A stretch of 25,754 bases of DNA from a virus. Each line of letters starts with the position of its first letter. Positions within the stretch are counted from its first letter, which is position 1. Location: positions 1 to 25,754 of the IMG/VR virus record IMGVR_UViG_3300012000_000113. One strand, written 5' to 3'. This document shows, piece by piece, positions 2,718 through 19,674 of the stretch. Below the pieces are notes generated by a model. That model searched no databases. It saw only the letters and a list, made by a program, of their open reading frames with translations, and was not told where the DNA came from. The position numbers and the translations under genes were made by a program.

Positions 2718-5700
2718 TCAGCGCATCCGCGCCATCGTCTGCGCCAGCTTCAGGCCGCTCCCATCGCCGCGCACCCCGACCGACACGTTCCACGCTTTCT
2801 GCCTCAGCTCAGCCACTTCCTGGCTCAGGTTTCCAACAGCAAGGGCCAGATGCGCCATCGCCGGATCAGAGCCACCACGCAGCACCCCGGCACCGCCGCC
2901 CTGCTGAGCCTTGGAATCTTTCGGGCTGCTGGTGATGTTGGCCGGGATTGCCGTGCCACGCGAGGGGGGTATCCAAGGGCTGCTGATGGGCCTGTTGATC
3001 AACGACAAGGCGCGAGAAGCTGACTGGAAAGCCTCGTGATCGACGCTTGCGCTGCTGGGGCCATCGTTGATCCGGTAGGTCTGGCCAGCATTGACAGGAC
3101 CTCCCGCGAATCGAGCAGGGGCGAGTCCAGCAGCAGGCGCCGGGGATCGGTAGGGCCGGTTCGCACCATCGCCTTTTTCCTCGGGCTTTTTCGCACGGCT
3201 GGTGGCACCGGCAGGAGTCACAGTGCCTCGGGATGGAGCCTGCCACAGCCTGTTGATTAGCGACAGAAGGCCGGAGGATGACACGAATGCCTCCTGATCA
3301 AGCGACATGCCGCTTGGGCCGTCGCTTATGCGGTTGGTCTTACTAGCACCACCACCTACAACCCCGGACTCCTTAAGTCGAGCGGTCACATCAGCGGGAA
3401 TCACCGTGCCACGGGAAGGCGCCTGCCACAGGCTGTTAGGCGGTCTGTTGATTAACGAAAGGTTACCGAAGGCTGAAAGGAACGCCTCCTGGCCGAGCGA
3501 CATACCGCTGGGGCCGTCGTTGATGCGGACGATCTGGCGAGCATTGACAGGGCCACCCGTAAAGCGGGCAGGGTGGGGTCCATCGGCAGAGGGCATGAAT
3601 TTAGAGGCCTGATCGGCACCACCGCTTATGGCCCTGGATTCTTTCGGGCGGGTGGTCACATCGGCCGGGTTGACCGTGCCATGGGAGGGTTCTTCCCGCA
3701 AACTGCTCGGCGGCTTGTTGATCAGCGAAAGGGCACCCAAAGCCGACAGGAGCGCCTCATACCCGAAAGGCATACCGCTCGGGCCGCTGCTCACTATGTA
3801 GGCCTTACCAGCACCACCGCCTAGAACCCCGGATTCCTTAAGGCGGCTGGTCACCGCAGCAGGGATCACCGTGCCACGGGAGGGGGCCGTCCAGAGGGTG
3901 TTCATCGGCTTGTTGATCAGCGACAAGGCACCGGAAGCGGACAGGAACGCCTCTTGGCCAAGGGAGAGGCCACTCGGGCCGTCGTTCACCCGGTAGGTCT
4001 TACCAGCATCGACCGGGCCACCAATAAAGCGGGAAGTGGGTAGGCCGGAGGCTGCCGCCAGGGAGCGGTAGAAGCTATCGGCCGAATCAGCAGCCCTGTC
4101 CATATTGCTAGCCAGTCCTGATGCCTGCGTCTTGGCCCCTTGCGTAGCTTTAGCAGCCACGCCCATAAAGTTCTTAATGTCATTTGAAGCGGGCCCAACC
4201 CCTTTGCCTAGCGCCTGCCCGATCTCGTAGTAGCCCTTGCCGGTATCACGCACTCGGAGACCTACATCCTTAGCCAACTGGGCGAAAGCACCCTGCTGGG
4301 CTAGGGGAACCTTCAGGGAGTCGCCCACGCTCTTGAACTGGTCGGCGGTGCCCTTCACCTTTTGGAAAGTGCCATCTGCTGCCAGGGCCAGCCCCCTGCT
4401 AGCGGCTTCGGCGATGATTGCATTGCGGGCTGTTTGATTGTTGGCGTTGGCGATCCGCTCCTCAATCGGCTGAGTCTTGGCCAGAATCTGTAGCTTGGTA
4501 TCAGCAGCGTTTAATCCCAGTTGAGCAATCTGCAGCCCAAGTTCTGCCTCTTTTCTAGCTTCGGCATTACCCGTAATAGAAGCTTGCTCTAGTTTTAGCT
4601 CCGCTTTCTTAACCTCTAGCCTTGCTGTATTGGATGCCAGGTTGGCCTCTAATGTGGCTTGTTGTTGCTGTAAGGATACTAAATCCCTCTGCAGGGTTTG
4701 CTGTTGGGTTAGTGCCGTAAACTTAAAGTTCAGCGCCGCTTGCTCGATTGCTTCACCGTCGCGCTTGATCTCGTCCAACTCCCTTTCGCTGGCTTTACGC
4801 TCCTGGGCATCTTTCAGCTCAAAGCTGTTGCGGTTGCGGATAATGTTAAAGCGTGAATCTTCTAGGTTGATTAGGGCTTGGCCAAGGTTAACACTAGCCT
4901 GCTGAACGGAAACACGCCCACTGGCCTCCGCTTGCAGTGTTTTTCCTACCGCTTCTGCTAGCTGCGCCTGTGTTACCAGCTCCTTAGCTTTTTCCGCATT
5001 TTGCTCTTTTGCCTTTGTCAGTCGGGCACTCTCGGCTGCGCTAACGGCATTGGTTTCACCAAGTATGTCCCGCTGAGTTGATACAAAGTCTTTGGCTAGT
5101 GTACGGATCTCTGTTTGTATTTGTGTAAACTGTTTACCGCCTAGGTTTAATTCACCAAACCAATCACGGCTAGCGCCTGTATTGGCAATAGCCCTGCTCA
5201 ACAGATTTTTTGCCTGTTGATCGCTTACACCAAACTCTTTGCTGATGTTTTTAAGAACACCAACTAGCTGCGTTGCTTCATCTGCCGTTAAGCCAAACGA
5301 CTGCCGCAAATCCCTCGCTGATGTGTCAACCTTCAACCCTTCTAACGCACCGGCCAGATTCGATACTTGCTGAGTAATCGTAGGCAGCAGGCTGGTTCCA
5401 AAGCTGGCCTGTAGATCATCAAAAGCGTTTTGCAGCTTGGCAAAGTTCTGCGCTGCCGTGGGCACCCCGCCCGCGCTTGCTGTCAAGTCGTTTAGGCCCT
5501 TGGTCAAAGCCGGGAAGAACTCCGTGGAGGTGAGCCGACCCGACTCGACCAGCTTGATTAGCTCCTGCTGGCTGATCCCAAGCCCCTTGGCAGTAGCAGC
5601 TAGGGCGATCGGCATTCGCTCGCCCAACTGACCGCGCAGCTCTTCCATCGACACGGTGCCCTTTGATGCCACCTGTTGAAGGGCCGTGAGGCTGCCGCTG

Positions 5701-6848
5701 ATCTCGTCAGTGGAGAGGCCCAGCGCCTGGCCAGCTTTGGCCACCGCTGAGAACAGATCCTTTTGTTGCTGCAGAGGAATCCCGGCTGCCGTTGCTGCCG
5801 CAGTGAAGCTGCCGAAGTTGTTGGCCAGATCCTTGAACGACAGGCCCAGCGTGTCGGCAATCTCACGGGTAAAGCCCAAAGCACCGGCTGCACCTTGCGG
5901 GCCAAGGGTATTAGAGAGCTTTCGGCCGATCGTCTCCAGCTCTACAGCTTTGGTAACTGAGTCCTTTAAGAACCCAACTACCGCAGCCCCAACCCCTATG
6001 GCGCCCAAACCCTGCAGCACTACGCTTAAAGCTTTAGCTGCCAGGCTGGTTTGCCCTAAGGCATTGTCAACTTGCTTTTGAGCTACAGCAATTTCTTGTT
6101 GTGCCCGCTTAAATTCTCTTGAGCCAATTACAGATTTTTCTAGGGTGAGGTTCAGCTCTGACAATCGATCCCTGTAACCCCGAATTGACTTCTCGTTGCC
6201 ATCGAATCCTTTTAATGCTGTGTTGATCTCTTGTTGTGTTTTGGCTATTCCTTTCTGAGCAGTAACAAACTCTTTTGAGCCAATCTCGGCTTTCTGTAAT
6301 GCCTTGTTGTAATCAGCAAGTTTATTATTTAGCCCTTCAATGCTTTTCTCGTTACCCTGAAATCCTTTTTGTGCTGCATTGAGTTTATCTTGAGCTTGCG
6401 CTATTTGTTTCTGCGTTGCAATGAACTTCTCAGACCCAACCACCGTTTGATCTAATGTTTCATTTAGCAAAGCTATCTTGCTGCGAAGCCCGCTGATGGT
6501 CGCTTCACCAGCTCCAAACCCTTTAAGGGCTACGTTGATCTCCTGCTGTGTTTTGGCGATCTCTTTTTGAGTCTCCACGAACTCCTTAGAACCGATAGCA
6601 GCCTTGTCCAGGGTCTGACCCAGCTCGCCGAGCTTGGCTTTCAGCCCCCCAAGGGTGGTGGCGTTGCTGCTAAGCCCCTGACTTAGCTCTTTGAGCTGAT
6701 TGCGCAGCCGCTCCAGCAGTTTGTCATTAGCTGCGAAGCCCGCCTGGAACTCTTGCCCCGCTGTCTTGCCCGCCTGCCCGATTTGCCGCGAGGCATCGAG
6801 CACGCCTTTAACATCGGCCGTAACCTTGATCACCCATTCGTTTGACAT
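2718..6848 (-). CDS. Tail tape measure protein with N- and C-terminal repeats
   Basis: A 1376-residue protein, by far the longest here, as expected for the protein that sets siphophage tail length. Residues about 65-268 hold four helical repeats of 52 residues, each with an IGSKEF-type core (positions 85, 137, 189, 241). Residues about 280-470 carry the conserved tape-measure segment (hydrophobic LGAIGVGAAVVGFLKD, then ETIGRKLSNT, MEELRGQLGERMP and GRLTSTEFFPAL). Residues about 560-850 are long Ala/Gln/Glu-rich coiled coil. From about residue 940 there are five copies of a GGPVNAG...NDGPSG...LSLIN...PSRGTVIP module, normally seen once in such proteins. The gene follows the tail-terminator candidate by 1 nt. 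Using about 1.5 angstrom per helical residue, a tail near 200 nm is possible, but the C-terminal repeats may not be helical. Confidence 0.93.
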   Translation of the reverse strand: MSNEWVIKVTADVKGVLDASRQIGQAGKTAGQEFQAGFAANDKLLERLRNQLKELSQGLSSNATTLGGLKAKLGELGQTLDKAAIGSKEFVETQKEIAKTQQEINVALKGFGAGEATISGLRSKIALLNETLDQTVVGSEKFIATQKQIAQAQDKLNAAQKGFQGNEKSIEGLNNKLADYNKALQKAEIGSKEFVTAQKGIAKTQQEINTALKGFDGNEKSIRGYRDRLSELNLTLEKSVIGSREFKRAQQEIAVAQKQVDNALGQTSLAAKALSVVLQGLGAIGVGAAVVGFLKDSVTKAVELETIGRKLSNTLGPQGAAGALGFTREIADTLGLSFKDLANNFGSFTAAATAAGIPLQQQKDLFSAVAKAGQALGLSTDEISGSLTALQQVASKGTVSMEELRGQLGERMPIALAATAKGLGISQQELIKLVESGRLTSTEFFPALTKGLNDLTASAGGVPTAAQNFAKLQNAFDDLQASFGTSLLPTITQQVSNLAGALEGLKVDTSARDLRQSFGLTADEATQLVGVLKNISKEFGVSDQQAKNLLSRAIANTGASRDWFGELNLGGKQFTQIQTEIRTLAKDFVSTQRDILGETNAVSAAESARLTKAKEQNAEKAKELVTQAQLAEAVGKTLQAEASGRVSVQQASVNLGQALINLEDSRFNIIRNRNSFELKDAQERKASERELDEIKRDGEAIEQAALNFKFTALTQQQTLQRDLVSLQQQQATLEANLASNTARLEVKKAELKLEQASITGNAEARKEAELGLQIAQLGLNAADTKLQILAKTQPIEERIANANNQTARNAIIAEAASRGLALAADGTFQKVKGTADQFKSVGDSLKVPLAQQGAFAQLAKDVGLRVRDTGKGYYEIGQALGKGVGPASNDIKNFMGVAAKATQGAKTQASGLASNMDRAADSADSFYRSLAAASGLPTSRFIGGPVDAGKTYRVNDGPSGLSLGQEAFLSASGALSLINKPMNTLWTAPSRGTVIPAAVTSRLKESGVLGGGAGKAYIVSSGPSGMPFGYEALLSALGALSLINKPPSSLREEPSHGTVNPADVTTRPKESRAISGGADQASKFMPSADGPHPARFTGGPVNARQIVRINDGPSGMSLGQEAFLSAFGNLSLINRPPNSLWQAPSRGTVIPADVTARLKESGVVGGGASKTNRISDGPSGMSLDQEAFVSSSGLLSLINRLWQAPSRGTVTPAGATSRAKKPEEKGDGANRPYRSPAPAAGLAPARFAGGPVNAGQTYRINDGPSSASVDHEAFQSASRALSLINRPISSPWIPPSRGTAIPANITSSPKDSKAQQGGGAGVLRGGSDPAMAHLALAVGNLSQEVAELRQKAWNVSVGVRGDGSGLKLAQTMARMR
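2910..4035 (-). repeat. Five-copy coding repeat in tape-measure C-terminus
   Basis: The codons for LSLIN recur at forward positions 3912, 3717, 3447, 3252 and 2994, giving spacings of 195, 270, 195 and 258 bp. The units alternate between a short form and a long form that adds an ARFxGGPVNA linker, so a two-unit block appears to have been duplicated. Copies differ at many positions, so the expansion is not recent. Confidence 0.85.
6045..6656 (-). repeat. Four 156-bp (52-residue) coding repeats in tape-measure N-terminus
   Basis: Four helical units with cores IGSKEF, VGSEKF, IGSKEF and IGSREF are spaced exactly 52 residues apart (residues 85, 137, 189, 241). Each is followed by a Q-x-x-IA-x-x-Q motif and then, in three of the four, by KGF. 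Such units are a plausible way of changing tail length in whole steps. Confidence 0.85.
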
Positions 6849-7650: not shown

Positions 7651-8484
7651 TCAGAGCAGATCCAGGCCCACCTTGCCGTAACCGGCCATGGACACCTGGA
7701 ACTTGATCACGGTGCCGGCCGTTTGCTGGGGCTGGTAGTTCTCAAAGAATCCGTAGCCGTACTCCACCTGCTTACCGTTATTGGGGCCGATGACGGCGTA
7801 CTTCACCATCAGCTTCTCGCTGACGTTGAACTCCTCGCAAAACCGCATCGCTCGCCAAGCGGGGTCGGCGTAGTTCATCGCACCTTCCAGGCTCCAGTCC
7901 TTGGTGCGCGAAAGGGGGATCGGGGTGTCATAGCTGCCTGATTCGTCATCGTAAATGATGACGCTTTCTTTGTTGGTGCTGTTGTTCGGCTGGATGTTGG
8001 TCAATCCCAACAGGCGGAACGGAGCATCGGTGCCATCGAGCAGCAGCGAAGGGGCTACCACACCAGCAGTTACAGCAGCAGTGGTGATCGCAGAACCGGT
8101 CAGGGCATAGGTCAGGGTGAACGGTGAAGAAGTCGTAACCGCTGTCACCACAAACGAACCATTTAGGGTGGTGAAGGGAGCAGGTAAGTCTCTAACAGCG
8201 ATCCGCTTGCCTACGGTGATGCCATGAGCAGCAGCGAAGGTCAGGGTTGCGGTGGTGGAAGTAGAGACGGCATTGGTAATCGCTTTAGTGCCAACCCCAA
8301 GCGCAAAGGTGTCACCGGTTCCGGCGGTGATCACCGTGGCGGAAGAGCTTTGCGTGCTGGTGTTGTCAATAAATTTGCCGGTGCCGAGGCCGCCGCCGGT
8401 CACCGTGTTTAGGTCTACTGAAGCCGCCTTCATCGGCACAAAGAAAAACCTGAATCCGTAAGCCTGTTCCCAAGTTTGAGGCAT
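7651..8484 (-). CDS. Major tail tube protein with inserted beta domain
   Basis: A 277-residue protein when started at the ATG at 8484 (MPQTWEQAYGFRFFF). The frame stays open further upstream, but that part is Arg-rich and would overlap the divergent AP2-like gene. The ends look like a siphophage tail tube: an N-terminal strand region, and a C-terminal half with DWSLEGAMNYADPAW, VEYGYGFFENYQP and a final GYGKVGLDLL. Residues about 68-145 form a Ser/Thr-rich insert with AHGITVGKRIAV and LNGSFVVTAV, a module seen in other phage and cyanobacterial surface proteins that may decorate the tail outside. The gene is followed by a strong terminator, as expected for a highly expressed structural gene, and preceded by an 87-nt divergent region. 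Confidence 0.8.
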   Translation of the reverse strand: MPQTWEQAYGFRFFFVPMKAASVDLNTVTGGGLGTGKFIDNTSTQSSSATVITAGTGDTFALGVGTKAITNAVSTSTTATLTFAAAHGITVGKRIAVRDLPAPFTTLNGSFVVTAVTTSSPFTLTYALTGSAITTAAVTAGVVAPSLLLDGTDAPFRLLGLTNIQPNNSTNKESVIIYDDESGSYDTPIPLSRTKDWSLEGAMNYADPAWRAMRFCEEFNVSEKLMVKYAVIGPNNGKQVEYGYGFFENYQPQQTAGTVIKFQVSMAGYGKVGLDLL

Positions 8485-8571
8485 GGTGGTTCCGGCATTG
8501 CCGGTGGGGGTACGTCGCAGGTTTCCCCACGGCTTAAGCCTTCTCAGCGGCTTAGGCGGGAAAGCTGTGGC
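8485..8571. promoter_or_regulatory. Divergent intergenic region with palindromes (possible operator)
   Basis: This gap separates the start of the tail tube gene (minus) from that of the AP2-like gene (plus). It contains a perfect 10-bp palindrome GGCTTAAGCC (8531-8540), and TAAGCC/GGCTTA can form a 6-bp hairpin around an 8-nt loop (8535-8554). A GGGAAAGCT element follows at 8558-8566. The same CTTAG and GGAAAGCT words make up the repeated intergenic motif elsewhere in the window. No convincing -35/-10 pair is visible. Confidence 0.4.
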
Positions 8572-8835
8572 ATGGCTTCTTACCCTCGCGGCGTTTCTCA
8601 TTGCCCCCACGCCAACCGGCGCCCGTACCAAGCCCGCGTGTGGTGGGCTGGGAGGCGCTGGTCGCTGGGCTACTTCACAACGATTCAGGCAGCAGCGCAG
8701 GCAGTGGAGGTGTGCTACTTAGAGATTGAACGATGGGCAGCCATGAATCTGCCGCCGCCCATGCTGGCGTTGCGGCATCGGGAGCGATCGGTACCAACAG
8801 GGTCACCAGCCGCTGAGGATCATCCGCCAACCTAA
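8572..8835 (+). CDS. Small AP2-like DNA-binding domain protein
   Basis: An 87-residue plus-strand ORF starting with ATG at 8572 (MASYPRGVSHCPHANRR). Residues 16-50 match the bacterial/phage AP2 pattern: a YQARVWW strand, GRRWSLGYF strand and turn, then the helix TTIQAAAQAVEV. AP2 domains bind DNA and in phages occur alone or fused to HNH nucleases; here no nuclease is attached. The Pro-rich C-terminal part (from about residue 60) overlaps antisense to the 3' end of the tail chaperone -1 frame (8675-8835), so one of the two C-termini is under little constraint. The gene opposes the operon, like the plus-strand genes at 7.3 and 13.4 kb. Confidence 0.62.
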   Translation: MASYPRGVSHCPHANRRPYQARVWWAGRRWSLGYFTTIQAAAQAVEVCYLEIERWAAMNLPPPMLALRHRERSVPTGSPAAEDHPPT

Positions 8836-9367
8836 AGATTCGCTCTTGTCCTGCTGCACTGTCCTCTGCTAGCAGTAGACCCCGCCAGCCGTCTTGATGT
8901 TCAACCGGGGCGAGCAGTAGGGCATCCTCTGCCAGTAGGGCTAGCAGCGAAGGTGGTGGCGTTCCCTCCCCGGCAGTGGCCAGGGCGTCGTAGAAGGCCA
9001 TCGCAAACCCTGGCACCTGATGTAGCTCGCATAGGGCCAGCATCGCCGCACCGGCTGCAGAAGGGGGTGCCTGGGCCTTCTCCCGATCTTTAGGCGGCAG
9101 GAACCAACAGAACTCCTCCATCGAGAACGGCTCGCGGCGCTGATCGGAGTCCCGATGAGCGGTCGCGTACCAGGCGTGGAGGTTGGCAATCGGGCGTTCT
9201 GCTGCGTGCAGTCGCTCCCTCAGGAGCCTGGCTCCTTCTTCAAGCGCCGAGCAGATGACGGTTTCGGGGCACCAGGCGAATTGCTCTCGGCTGAACTCTG
9301 GGTTGTGGGGCCAGAAGTCTTGCAAGCGCCAGAAGATAGCTCCCCAGTCGGTGGGAGCAGGCTGGGC
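8675..9367 (-). CDS. Tail assembly chaperone, -1 frame extension (GT-like, T part)
   Basis: This is the downstream half of a frameshifted gene: 230 residues read only after ribosomes on the 9927 frame slip back one base at GGGAAAG (9373-9367). The join is complement(join(9367..9927, 8675..9367)), giving a 417-residue fusion. In this frame a TGA lies at 9412-9410, so it is open through the slip site. No ATG or GTG opens it near its 5' end; only a TTG at 9325 could serve as an independent start, and coding-like sequence (TDWGAIFWRL) already precedes that TTG. The protein has acidic and Ala/Leu-rich helical stretches. By analogy with lambda gpGT it should recruit tail tube subunits to the tape measure and be absent from the mature virion. 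Confidence 0.78.
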   Translation of the reverse strand, partial: AQPAPTDWGAIFWRLQDFWPHNPEFSREQFAWCPETVICSALEEGARLLRERLHAAERPIANLHAWYATAHRDSDQRREPFSMEEFCWFLPPKDREKAQAPPSAAGAAMLALCELHQVPGFAMAFYDALATAGEGTPPPSLLALLAEDALLLAPVEHQDGWRGLLLAEDSAAGQERIFRLADDPQRLVTLLVPIAPDAATPAWAAADSWLPIVQSLSSTPPLPALLPESL

Positions 9368-9927
9368 TTTCCCAGGCTGTCGGCCATTAGCTGCAACGCT
9401 GCCGCAGGATCAGCCGGTGCTGCTCCACCACGCTGCTCTTTGAGCATGAAGGCGTAGATGGCGTTACGGAGGGGCTCGGTCAAGCTGCGGGTGTCGTCAT
9501 CGGTCCACGCTGCGCAATCGGGGTCCACCTTGCCGAGGCGGTAGACAATCGCGGCGGTGACAAGGCGGGTGACTTGTGCCTCATTCTGTAGGGAAAGGCG
9601 ATTGTCAATTTCACGGATCAACCGATGCTCTCTTTGCCGAATGGTGTCTTCCAGTGGCTCCAGCTCTACGGGGATCCCGATGTGCTTAGCCATCAGGCGA
9701 GCGGCCACTAGGTTGGCATCGGCCTCGGGTAGGTCGTCCATTTCGCGGATGATGCTGGCCAGCCGGTGGGTCTGCTCGTTCACCGTGCTTTGGTAGTCGA
9801 TCTCATCAAGCAGCATCCGCTCCCCGGCTAGCAGTGCATTGAAGACAGGAAATTGCAGGATGCCGGTGGTTTCATCCCCCACCTGCTCAACCTTGATCTC
9901 TGGCGCGGTAACAAAGGGAAGGGGCAC
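9220..9927 (-). CDS. Tail assembly chaperone, zero-frame product (G-like)
   Basis: A 235-residue product from a GTG start (MPLPFVTAPEIKVEQ). The first 187 residues are a compact, mostly helical domain (DLPEADANLVAARLM, LEPLEDTIRQREHRL, EPLRNAIYAFMLKEQRG) typical in size for siphophage tail assembly chaperones. After the slip site the zero frame adds 48 residues of low-complexity Ser/Pro/Lys sequence ending at 9220, while the -1 frame continues as a normal protein. That asymmetry is what a lambda G/GT arrangement looks like. The gene follows the HK97 gp10-like connector by 34 nt, with a copy of the 17-nt motif in that gap, and precedes the tail tube gene. In lambda-type phages the pair comes after the tube gene. 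Confidence 0.78.
   Translation of the reverse strand: MPLPFVTAPEIKVEQVGDETTGILQFPVFNALLAGERMLLDEIDYQSTVNEQTHRLASIIREMDDLPEADANLVAARLMAKHIGIPVELEPLEDTIRQREHRLIREIDNRLSLQNEAQVTRLVTAAIVYRLGKVDPDCAAWTDDDTRSLTEPLRNAIYAFMLKEQRGGAAPADPAAALQLMADSLGKPSLLPPTGELSSGACKTSGPTTQSSAESNSPGAPKPSSARRLKKEPGS
9339..9373 (-). promoter_or_regulatory. -1 programmed ribosomal frameshift signal
   Basis: The heptamer GGGAAAG (9373-9367) is in the zero frame as G GGA AAG, the same slippery sequence used by lambda G/GT. It is followed by an 8-nt spacer and then a perfect 6-bp stem GCTCCC/GGGAGC with an 8-nt loop (9358-9339). After slippage the tRNAs re-pair on GGG AAA and the next codon is GCC. Confidence 0.82.
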
Positions 9928-11914: not shown

Positions 11915-13060
11915 TTACTCGGTAAAGACCGGGAATGAACCAACGAAACCCATAGAGCTGTGCAGGAAGCGCATTCCCTGCTGCGGTCGCTCGGGCCTAT
12001 AGCCCTGGCGGTGCCCGTAGGGAGCGCAACCTGGGAGGCTGCCATTTCCGGTAGCCCTACCAAAGCTCAGGGTGTGGAAGTGACCGTGAAAGGTGTTGTC
12101 GGCTGGGATGCTCTGATCGAGGTTCTTAACGTGCTTGTCCACGTTCCATAGCGGGCCAGCAGCGCCACCGTTGTATTTGACGGAATCACCGTGAAAGAAC
12201 CTGATCCGCTTGTCGTATAGATCGAGGTAAAGGCAGTCGGCATCAGCGATCTGCCACACCAGGCGCGGCTGGTCCCTGTAGTGGCGTCGCAGGTTGTGAT
12301 ACATCAAATGGGCAAAGCTGTTCTCGGTAGCGTTGCTCTGCTGTTTTTTCGTGGTTCTGTCATGGTTTCCCACGTTGCAGGGCACGATGATCCGCTCTAG
12401 ATCCGAGTGGGCTAGCAGGTAATCAAAGCCCCGCACCAGGGCTAACTGACACCGTACGATCTGCTGCGTGGTGGTCAGGGTTTGGTTCTGCACAGCGTCG
12501 TTGTGCAGCTCACCTTCGATCATGTCGCCGCCGAGCCACACCACACCCTCGCGGATGGTCATGGTGTTGCGTTGGCCGTTAATGATCTTTAGGGCATTGC
12601 GGAATACCGCATCAAGCCGATCATCGAAAATGTCCGGGTTGAACTCGTTGAGTTCGTTGACCGCTGAAGGCTTTACCACCATGCCGCAGTGAATATCGCT
12701 AATCATCAGGATCGGTGCCGCTTCCTCTTGCTCGGGATCTTCCGGCAGCTCAATCGTGCCCTGATCAAAAATGTCCCTGATCTCTAGGGCCACCGTTAGC
12801 GCATCCTGCACCGTTTCCAGCTTGGCTAATGCACGCTCTGCCGATGCCTTGGCATCCCTCACCTCAGCTCTGAGCCTGCGGGCATCAAGCTGCAGCGCCA
12901 GCAGATCCTCTGAGGTATCGCTGCGCTTGTTATTGGGACACATGCCCGGCAGGCAGAAGGGTCGCCGCTTGCCCGCTTCTACCTGCCACTCGATCGCGCT
13001 TTCCACAATCCATGCCCTGCAAGCACTGTTTCGCCTGCATTGAAAGGTGCGCTCTGACAT
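11915..13060 (-). CDS. Metallophosphoesterase with N-terminal Cys knuckles
   Basis: A 381-residue protein. The N-terminus has paired Cys (C8, C14, C36, C41) suggesting a small zinc-binding element, followed by a coiled coil (about 52-95). The catalytic domain has the complete calcineurin-like set in order: SDIHCG (121-126), GGD (177-179), GNHDR (231-235), FFHGD (289-292) and GHFHT (326-330). Such enzymes cleave phosphodiesters (DNA, RNA or cyclic nucleotides) using two metal ions. The substrate is unknown. The Cys/coiled-coil front suggests nucleic-acid binding, so a nuclease role is the most likely. It is 4 nt downstream of the small helical gene and directly upstream of the HNH gene; the three may form a moron-type cassette. 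Confidence 0.87.
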   Translation of the reverse strand: MSERTFQCRRNSACRAWIVESAIEWQVEAGKRRPFCLPGMCPNNKRSDTSEDLLALQLDARRLRAEVRDAKASAERALAKLETVQDALTVALEIRDIFDQGTIELPEDPEQEEAAPILMISDIHCGMVVKPSAVNELNEFNPDIFDDRLDAVFRNALKIINGQRNTMTIREGVVWLGGDMIEGELHNDAVQNQTLTTTQQIVRCQLALVRGFDYLLAHSDLERIIVPCNVGNHDRTTKKQQSNATENSFAHLMYHNLRRHYRDQPRLVWQIADADCLYLDLYDKRIRFFHGDSVKYNGGAAGPLWNVDKHVKNLDQSIPADNTFHGHFHTLSFGRATGNGSLPGCAPYGHRQGYRPERPQQGMRFLHSSMGFVGSFPVFTE

Positions 13061-18792: not shown

Positions 18793-19674
18793 TCAGAGCT
18801 TCACAGCCTTGGGATGGGGCTTGCGGCGGGCGAACAGCGAGGGCTGCACCACCTCAACCGGTGCGGGTCTGGGCTGGCGAGGGCGTCGCTCACGGGGCAC
18901 CGGGGCAACGGTGGCAACATTAAGCCCTAATAGCCCCTGGCGAAACTGCTCCAGGGTGCGGCCCCGTAGCTGGGCCTTCAGACGGTTGTGGAATTGAAGC
19001 ATCGGCCCCGAGGGATAGGGCCTCTTGAACGGATCGGCTGCCCATCGCTCTAGAAGGCCACGGTCAGCGGGGCGCAGGTTGGTGAAGGCCGCTTCACTGA
19101 GGCCATAAAGGGCCGGGGCCAGGGCTGCCTCTGTGGCCTGGGGCTGATGTTGGCTGAATAGGGTCAGCTCGTCTTCCAGCTCGATGGTGCCCACCATGCC
19201 GCCCATCATCTCCACAATCTCGTCTTGCTCAAACATCGGCAGGGCCGTTGCAACTTGGGCCAGGGTCTGACCCTCGGCCAGGAGGCGCCGGACCTTGGGG
19301 TAATACTCACGCCACTTGGCAGGCATCTTCACGTCGTAGCCGTGGTCCCTGATGTGATGCTTGATGGCCCCGTCAATGAACATGCACACGCAGGTCGAAA
19401 GCGCATAGGGGCGATTAGTGCCAGGGTTGATCCGCTCGGGGTCATAGCGGCGGCACCCGTTAATCAGCCCTTCTAGGGCAGGGCCTATGAAGTCCTCAAA
19501 GGGGCGGGAGCAGCGGCGCGACCATTTAGCAGCGGCTGCCTCAGCTAGCCCCTGGTTCTCGGTGATCAGCCGCTCGGATAGCTCGGTGCGGGGCGGTGAG
19601 CCTGGCTTGGTCGGTTGCTCTAGCGGTGCCGCTGTACGGGCCCGCTTGCGCTGTGGCGTGGTGATGGTCGTCAT
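18793..19674 (-). CDS. Sigma-70-family-like factor encoded in the packaging operon
   Basis: A 293-residue protein whose ATG at 19674 overlaps the terminase stop by 4 nt. Residues 36-110 follow sigma region 2: LITENQGLAEAAAAKW, then FEDFIGPALEGLINGCRRYD, then ALSTCVCMFIDGAIKHHIRD. A possible region-3/4 type helix pair lies at 130-150 (AEGQTLAQVATAL). The C-terminal part, with LRPADRGLLERW and a basic Pro-rich tail (RRPRQPRPAPV), is unlike standard sigma region 4. It could redirect host RNA polymerase to phage promoters. An alternative is a region-2-like DNA-binding protein without sigma activity. A sigma gene between terminase and portal is unusual. Confidence 0.72.
   Translation of the reverse strand: MTTITTPQRKRARTAAPLEQPTKPGSPPRTELSERLITENQGLAEAAAAKWSRRCSRPFEDFIGPALEGLINGCRRYDPERINPGTNRPYALSTCVCMFIDGAIKHHIRDHGYDVKMPAKWREYYPKVRRLLAEGQTLAQVATALPMFEQDEIVEMMGGMVGTIELEDELTLFSQHQPQATEAALAPALYGLSEAAFTNLRPADRGLLERWAADPFKRPYPSGPMLQFHNRLKAQLRGRTLEQFRQGLLGLNVATVAPVPRERRPRQPRPAPVEVVQPSLFARRKPHPKAVKL

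Follow-up and report, generated by a model that had tools for sequence, protein, structure and literature searches.

The G-T frameshift in tail assembly chaperone genes is widely conserved among long-tailed double-stranded DNA phages, and the sequence G_GGA_AAG is strongly shift-prone in E. coli (PMC5009743). In phage lambda, G attaches to the tape measure protein and T brings in the major tail protein (PMC5009743). A GGGAAAG slip site is also found at the 3' end of gpG in phage TP901-1, where gpG and gpT mutants affect tail assembly (PMC4493119). Here we describe a 25,754-base viral sequence, IMG/VR virus record IMGVR_UViG_3300012000_000113 (the window), whose minus strand carries what is very probably a tail assembly chaperone gene of the lambda G/GT type, expressed via programmed -1 ribosomal frameshifting. 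The locus has the lambda layout: the GGGAAAG heptamer, its phase, a second open reading frame (ORF) without a conserved start, and a position in the tail module. Its predicted products are larger than those of lambda, which are about 140 and 279 amino acids long. TP901-1 is a lactococcal phage, unlike the cyanophage-like window, and was compared by slip site and function. No report of frameshifting in cyanophage tail genes was found in the open-access literature, subscription papers being outside the search. The mechanism itself is already known, and the window locus is a so far unannotated case of it rather than a surprising one.

Layout of the locus and conservation of the predicted slip site

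The predicted zero-frame ORF encodes a G-like tail assembly chaperone (9220-9927, minus strand). It starts at GTG and specifies 235 amino acids, of which 187 precede the slip site and 48 form a tail after it. Homologues of this G part occur in PSS2, S-CRES3 and S-CBS2, and relatives share the start position, with M-PLPF. The predicted -1 frameshift site, G GGA AAG, lies at 9373-9367; the zero frame reads it as CTG GGA AAG, the phase that a tandem -1 slip needs. An open -1 frame runs from 9409 to 8675 and encodes a putative T-like domain, predicted to be reached by frameshifting, that matches phrog_34388, a family of unknown function. Within the window, TTG 9325 is the sole early start-like codon of this frame. 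By arithmetic the predicted fusion comprises 187 plus 230 codons, or 417 amino acids. A preliminary description of this DNA had proposed the heptamer and its phase, the extent of the -1 frame with its single TTG, and products of 235 and 417 residues, all of which we could reproduce.

The sequences show the layout, its conservation in phase, the missing conserved start of the second frame, coding-type evolution of the -1 frame and synteny with tail genes; slippage, its efficiency, any stimulation by the hairpin and the binding partners are inferred. Most ribosomes would read the zero frame and produce the 235-residue G-like protein. In a minority, the glycine and lysine tRNAs on G GGA AAG would slip back by one base, re-pair on GGG AAA and continue in the -1 frame to yield a 417-residue GT-like fusion. 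The lambda system suggests that the G part may coat the tape measure protein and that the T part may recruit the major tail protein. A chaperone function is supported by synteny and by the layout and mechanism, not by sequence or fold similarity to lambda G and T.

As a bare word GGGAAAG is not rare, occurring 9 times in the window against 4.4 expected, and the evidential weight therefore falls on its phase, place and conservation. When the codons of the ORF were shuffled, 0.7% of shuffles had an in-phase GGGAAAG or AAAAAAG at some point in the overlap, and 0.17% had one within the first 16 codons of the overlap. Viral contigs were scanned with each half of the pair, which gave 69 and 42 loci; these were reduced to 50 distinct versions, the window included. 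GGGAAAG stood at the identical place and in the identical phase in 49 of the 50, the exception (L045) reading G GGG AAG, one base different. In the gap-free group CTG GGA AAG was invariant at the slip site (37/37), whereas GGA accounted for only 10 of 317 upstream glycine codons (about 3%), and a single codon was retained at 9 of 109 conserved degenerate residues upstream.

The same arrangement extends to distant clades. In the clade L160-L169, whose T domain is about 48% identical, GGGAAAG is in phase at the junction, and all 15 loci related to S-CRES3 carry GGGAAAG or AAAAAAG there, likewise in phase. Four cultured cyanophages also have in-phase heptamers, GGGAAAG in PSS2 and S-CRES3 and AAAAAAG in S-CBS2 and S-CRES1. 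Their T parts are homologous to that of the window (32-36%) and their tail gene neighbourhoods match; the G part is homologous at 30% in PSS2 and at 15-19% in the S-CRES phages and S-CBS2. The T domain of PSS2 as a scan query returned no relatives by the single-sequence method. Thus the prediction that the heptamer and the fusion layout would be conserved in relatives was borne out by the close versions, the distant clades and the cultured phages.

Alternative explanations for the second reading frame

The locus could instead consist of two separate genes, with translation of the second beginning internally, for example at TTG 9325. GenBank lists two separate coding sequences with no annotated frameshift in PSS2, S-CBS2, S-CRES1 and S-CRES3, where the pair is annotated as hypothetical or tail assembly genes, the window does carry one TTG, and in several S-CRES3-like loci an ATG or TTG follows the heptamer within a few codons. 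However, the window TTG is found in only 3 of the 50 versions (the window, L071 and L072), and in 43 of the 50 versions ATG, GTG and TTG are all absent from the -1 frame between its upstream stop and 50 codons beyond the heptamer. The second-gene starts annotated in the cultured phages (TTG, GTG, GTG and ATG) lie 41-70 codons past the slip site, inside the conserved domain, although -1-frame homology starts close after the heptamer, upstream of all of them. A second gene with its own start would also leave the invariance of a rare synonymous codon, GGA, at the heptamer to be accounted for. Start-like codons were mostly absent or differently placed among the relatives, and no relative showed the pattern named beforehand as refuting, in which the second gene is intact with a conserved start and the heptamer is missing. 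We regard the two-gene explanation as largely refuted and very improbable.

It had been anticipated that annotation as two genes would truncate and mis-start the second, and this is what GenBank holds for the four cultured cyanophages. The gene models in these four genomes are wrong, with T shortened by 41-70 residues and treated as a free protein, and many metagenomic contigs are probably mis-annotated in the same way. The -1-frame product matched the phrog_34388 profile with an E value of 6e-33, and all 27 aligned members matched; this was the only family matched by all T-part members. The phrog_34388 alignment begins at residue 42, and the family therefore seems to have been built on truncated gene calls. 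Recognition of the frameshift gives this unnamed family a likely function, and the locus provides a clean system for testing -1 frameshifting in cyanobacterial phages.

Transcriptional slippage rather than ribosomal frameshifting could also generate the -1 product, and the six-base A run of AAAAAAG in some relatives would suit it. The heptamer of the window and of most relatives, GGGAAAG, has only three-base runs, which are too short for efficient polymerase slippage, while an in-phase X XXY YYZ is the pattern required for tandem slippage of tRNAs. We consider a transcriptional origin very unlikely. That a sequencing or assembly indel, or decay of a gene split by a frameshift mutation, produced the layout could be entertained for a single metagenomic contig such as the window, but this is exceedingly improbable and is refuted because the same -1 layout recurs in four isolate genomes and in 50 distinct versions drawn from many samples, with coding constraint on both frames.

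The zero-frame tail and the downstream hairpin

The zero-frame tail that follows the slip site (9220-9366, minus strand) is rich in S, P, G and K, in keeping with its earlier description as low complexity. Differences per -1-frame codon in the overlap were 0.25 at the third position, 0.14 at the first and 0.12 at the second. This concentration at the third position suggests that selection mainly sees the -1 frame, which largely dictates how the tail evolves. When synonymous recoding of the -1 frame was simulated, 47% of recodings left the zero frame without a stop over 50 codons; only 3% retained the same zero-frame stop, in a simulation without shared ancestry. Since substitutions track the -1 frame and nearly half of the recodings stay open, the openness of the tail needs no selection. 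On this ground the tail was rejected as a selected overlapping product, but the stop, so rarely retained in the recodings, may still reflect constraint.

The length of the tail differs between groups. In the S-CRES/S-CBS2 group the zero frame ends immediately or one codon past the heptamer, whereas it extends for about 39-54 codons in PSS2 and the clade of the window, and for 48 in the window itself. In one relative (L051:4396-5361) the post-slip tail runs to 136 codons, compared with the usual 50 or so. A broader proposal combines two elements: that the tail of about 48 residues, near-constant in length in the window's clade, has a function of its own, and that a group-wide, unreported programmed -1 frameshift makes a sequence-unrelated tail chaperone pair in cyanophage-like siphoviruses. 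We think this combination unlikely.

Downstream of the heptamer, an 8-nucleotide spacer, CCCAGCCT (9366-9359), leads into a hairpin (9339-9358, minus strand) with an 8-nucleotide loop and a 6-base-pair stem, GCTCCC/GGGAGC, at 9358-9353 and 9344-9339. Spacer and stem are present as originally claimed. Of the frameshift signal proposed in the preliminary description, the heptamer and the -1 shift stand, being conserved, while the hairpin fared less well. A stem of 4-6 base pairs recurs in many of 34 distinct sequences, but its register shifts and it is lost or altered in L012, L057, L063 and L066. The z-score of the hairpin reached -3.4 only for a trimmed 28-nucleotide segment chosen around the stem; for 42 nucleotides it was -1.2, and in relatives it was weak or absent. 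An Rfam search returned no match. The hairpin is a possible stimulator, and its role as a conserved one is doubtful.

Several observations weigh against a lambda-type chaperone pair, beginning with this inconstant hairpin. Neither the G part nor the T part has a sequence match to named tail chaperones in the libraries searched, and no similarity between the window pair and lambda G/GT was detectable there. A PDB fold search with both parts, whose AlphaFold models had mean predicted local distance difference test (pLDDT) scores of 81 and 84, gave no match. Among virus structures, an annotated frameshift protein G and one tail assembly chaperone came up, but only as insignificant hits (E about 1-2). 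The gene order also differs from that of lambda, in which the major tail protein gene precedes the G/T pair; in the window this gene comes after the pair and before the tape measure gene. The missing PDB match, judged on predicted models, is no evidence for a new fold. The G part also gave a weak profile hit to a designed helical repeat protein (E 7e-5), which we attributed to chance arising from helical composition.

The tail module and neighbouring genes

The G/GT pair belongs to the tail module and precedes the tape measure gene. The order on the minus strand is a neck-like gene (10402-9962), the G/GT pair, a homologue of the major tail protein, a gp82-like gene (7371-6850) and the tape measure gene. 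The expected partner of the T domain is the major tail protein homologue (7651-8631, minus strand; S-CRES3 gp83), which was identified by homology and probably starts at an ATG inside the listed ORF. The tape measure protein (2718-6848, minus strand), recognised by Pfam TMP_3 and by homology, would be the partner of the G domain. Metagenomic relatives whose flanks span the module keep this order but carry variable insertions, with up to about 3.5 kb between the major tail protein and gp82-like genes. S-CRES3 and S-CBS2 have these two genes in the opposite order to the window, the gp82-like gene first.

Within the C-terminal third of the window's tape measure protein, several segments at about residues 1071-1345 align with one stretch of about 110 amino acids in the tape measure proteins of S-CBS2 and S-CRES3, which suggests that the protein may contain internal repeats. 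Elsewhere in the window, an exonuclease-like gene (phrog_284; 11915-13060) lies inside the structural gene block, and a gene resembling an RNA polymerase sigma factor (phrog_36098; 18793-19674) is flanked by the terminase large subunit gene and the portal gene.
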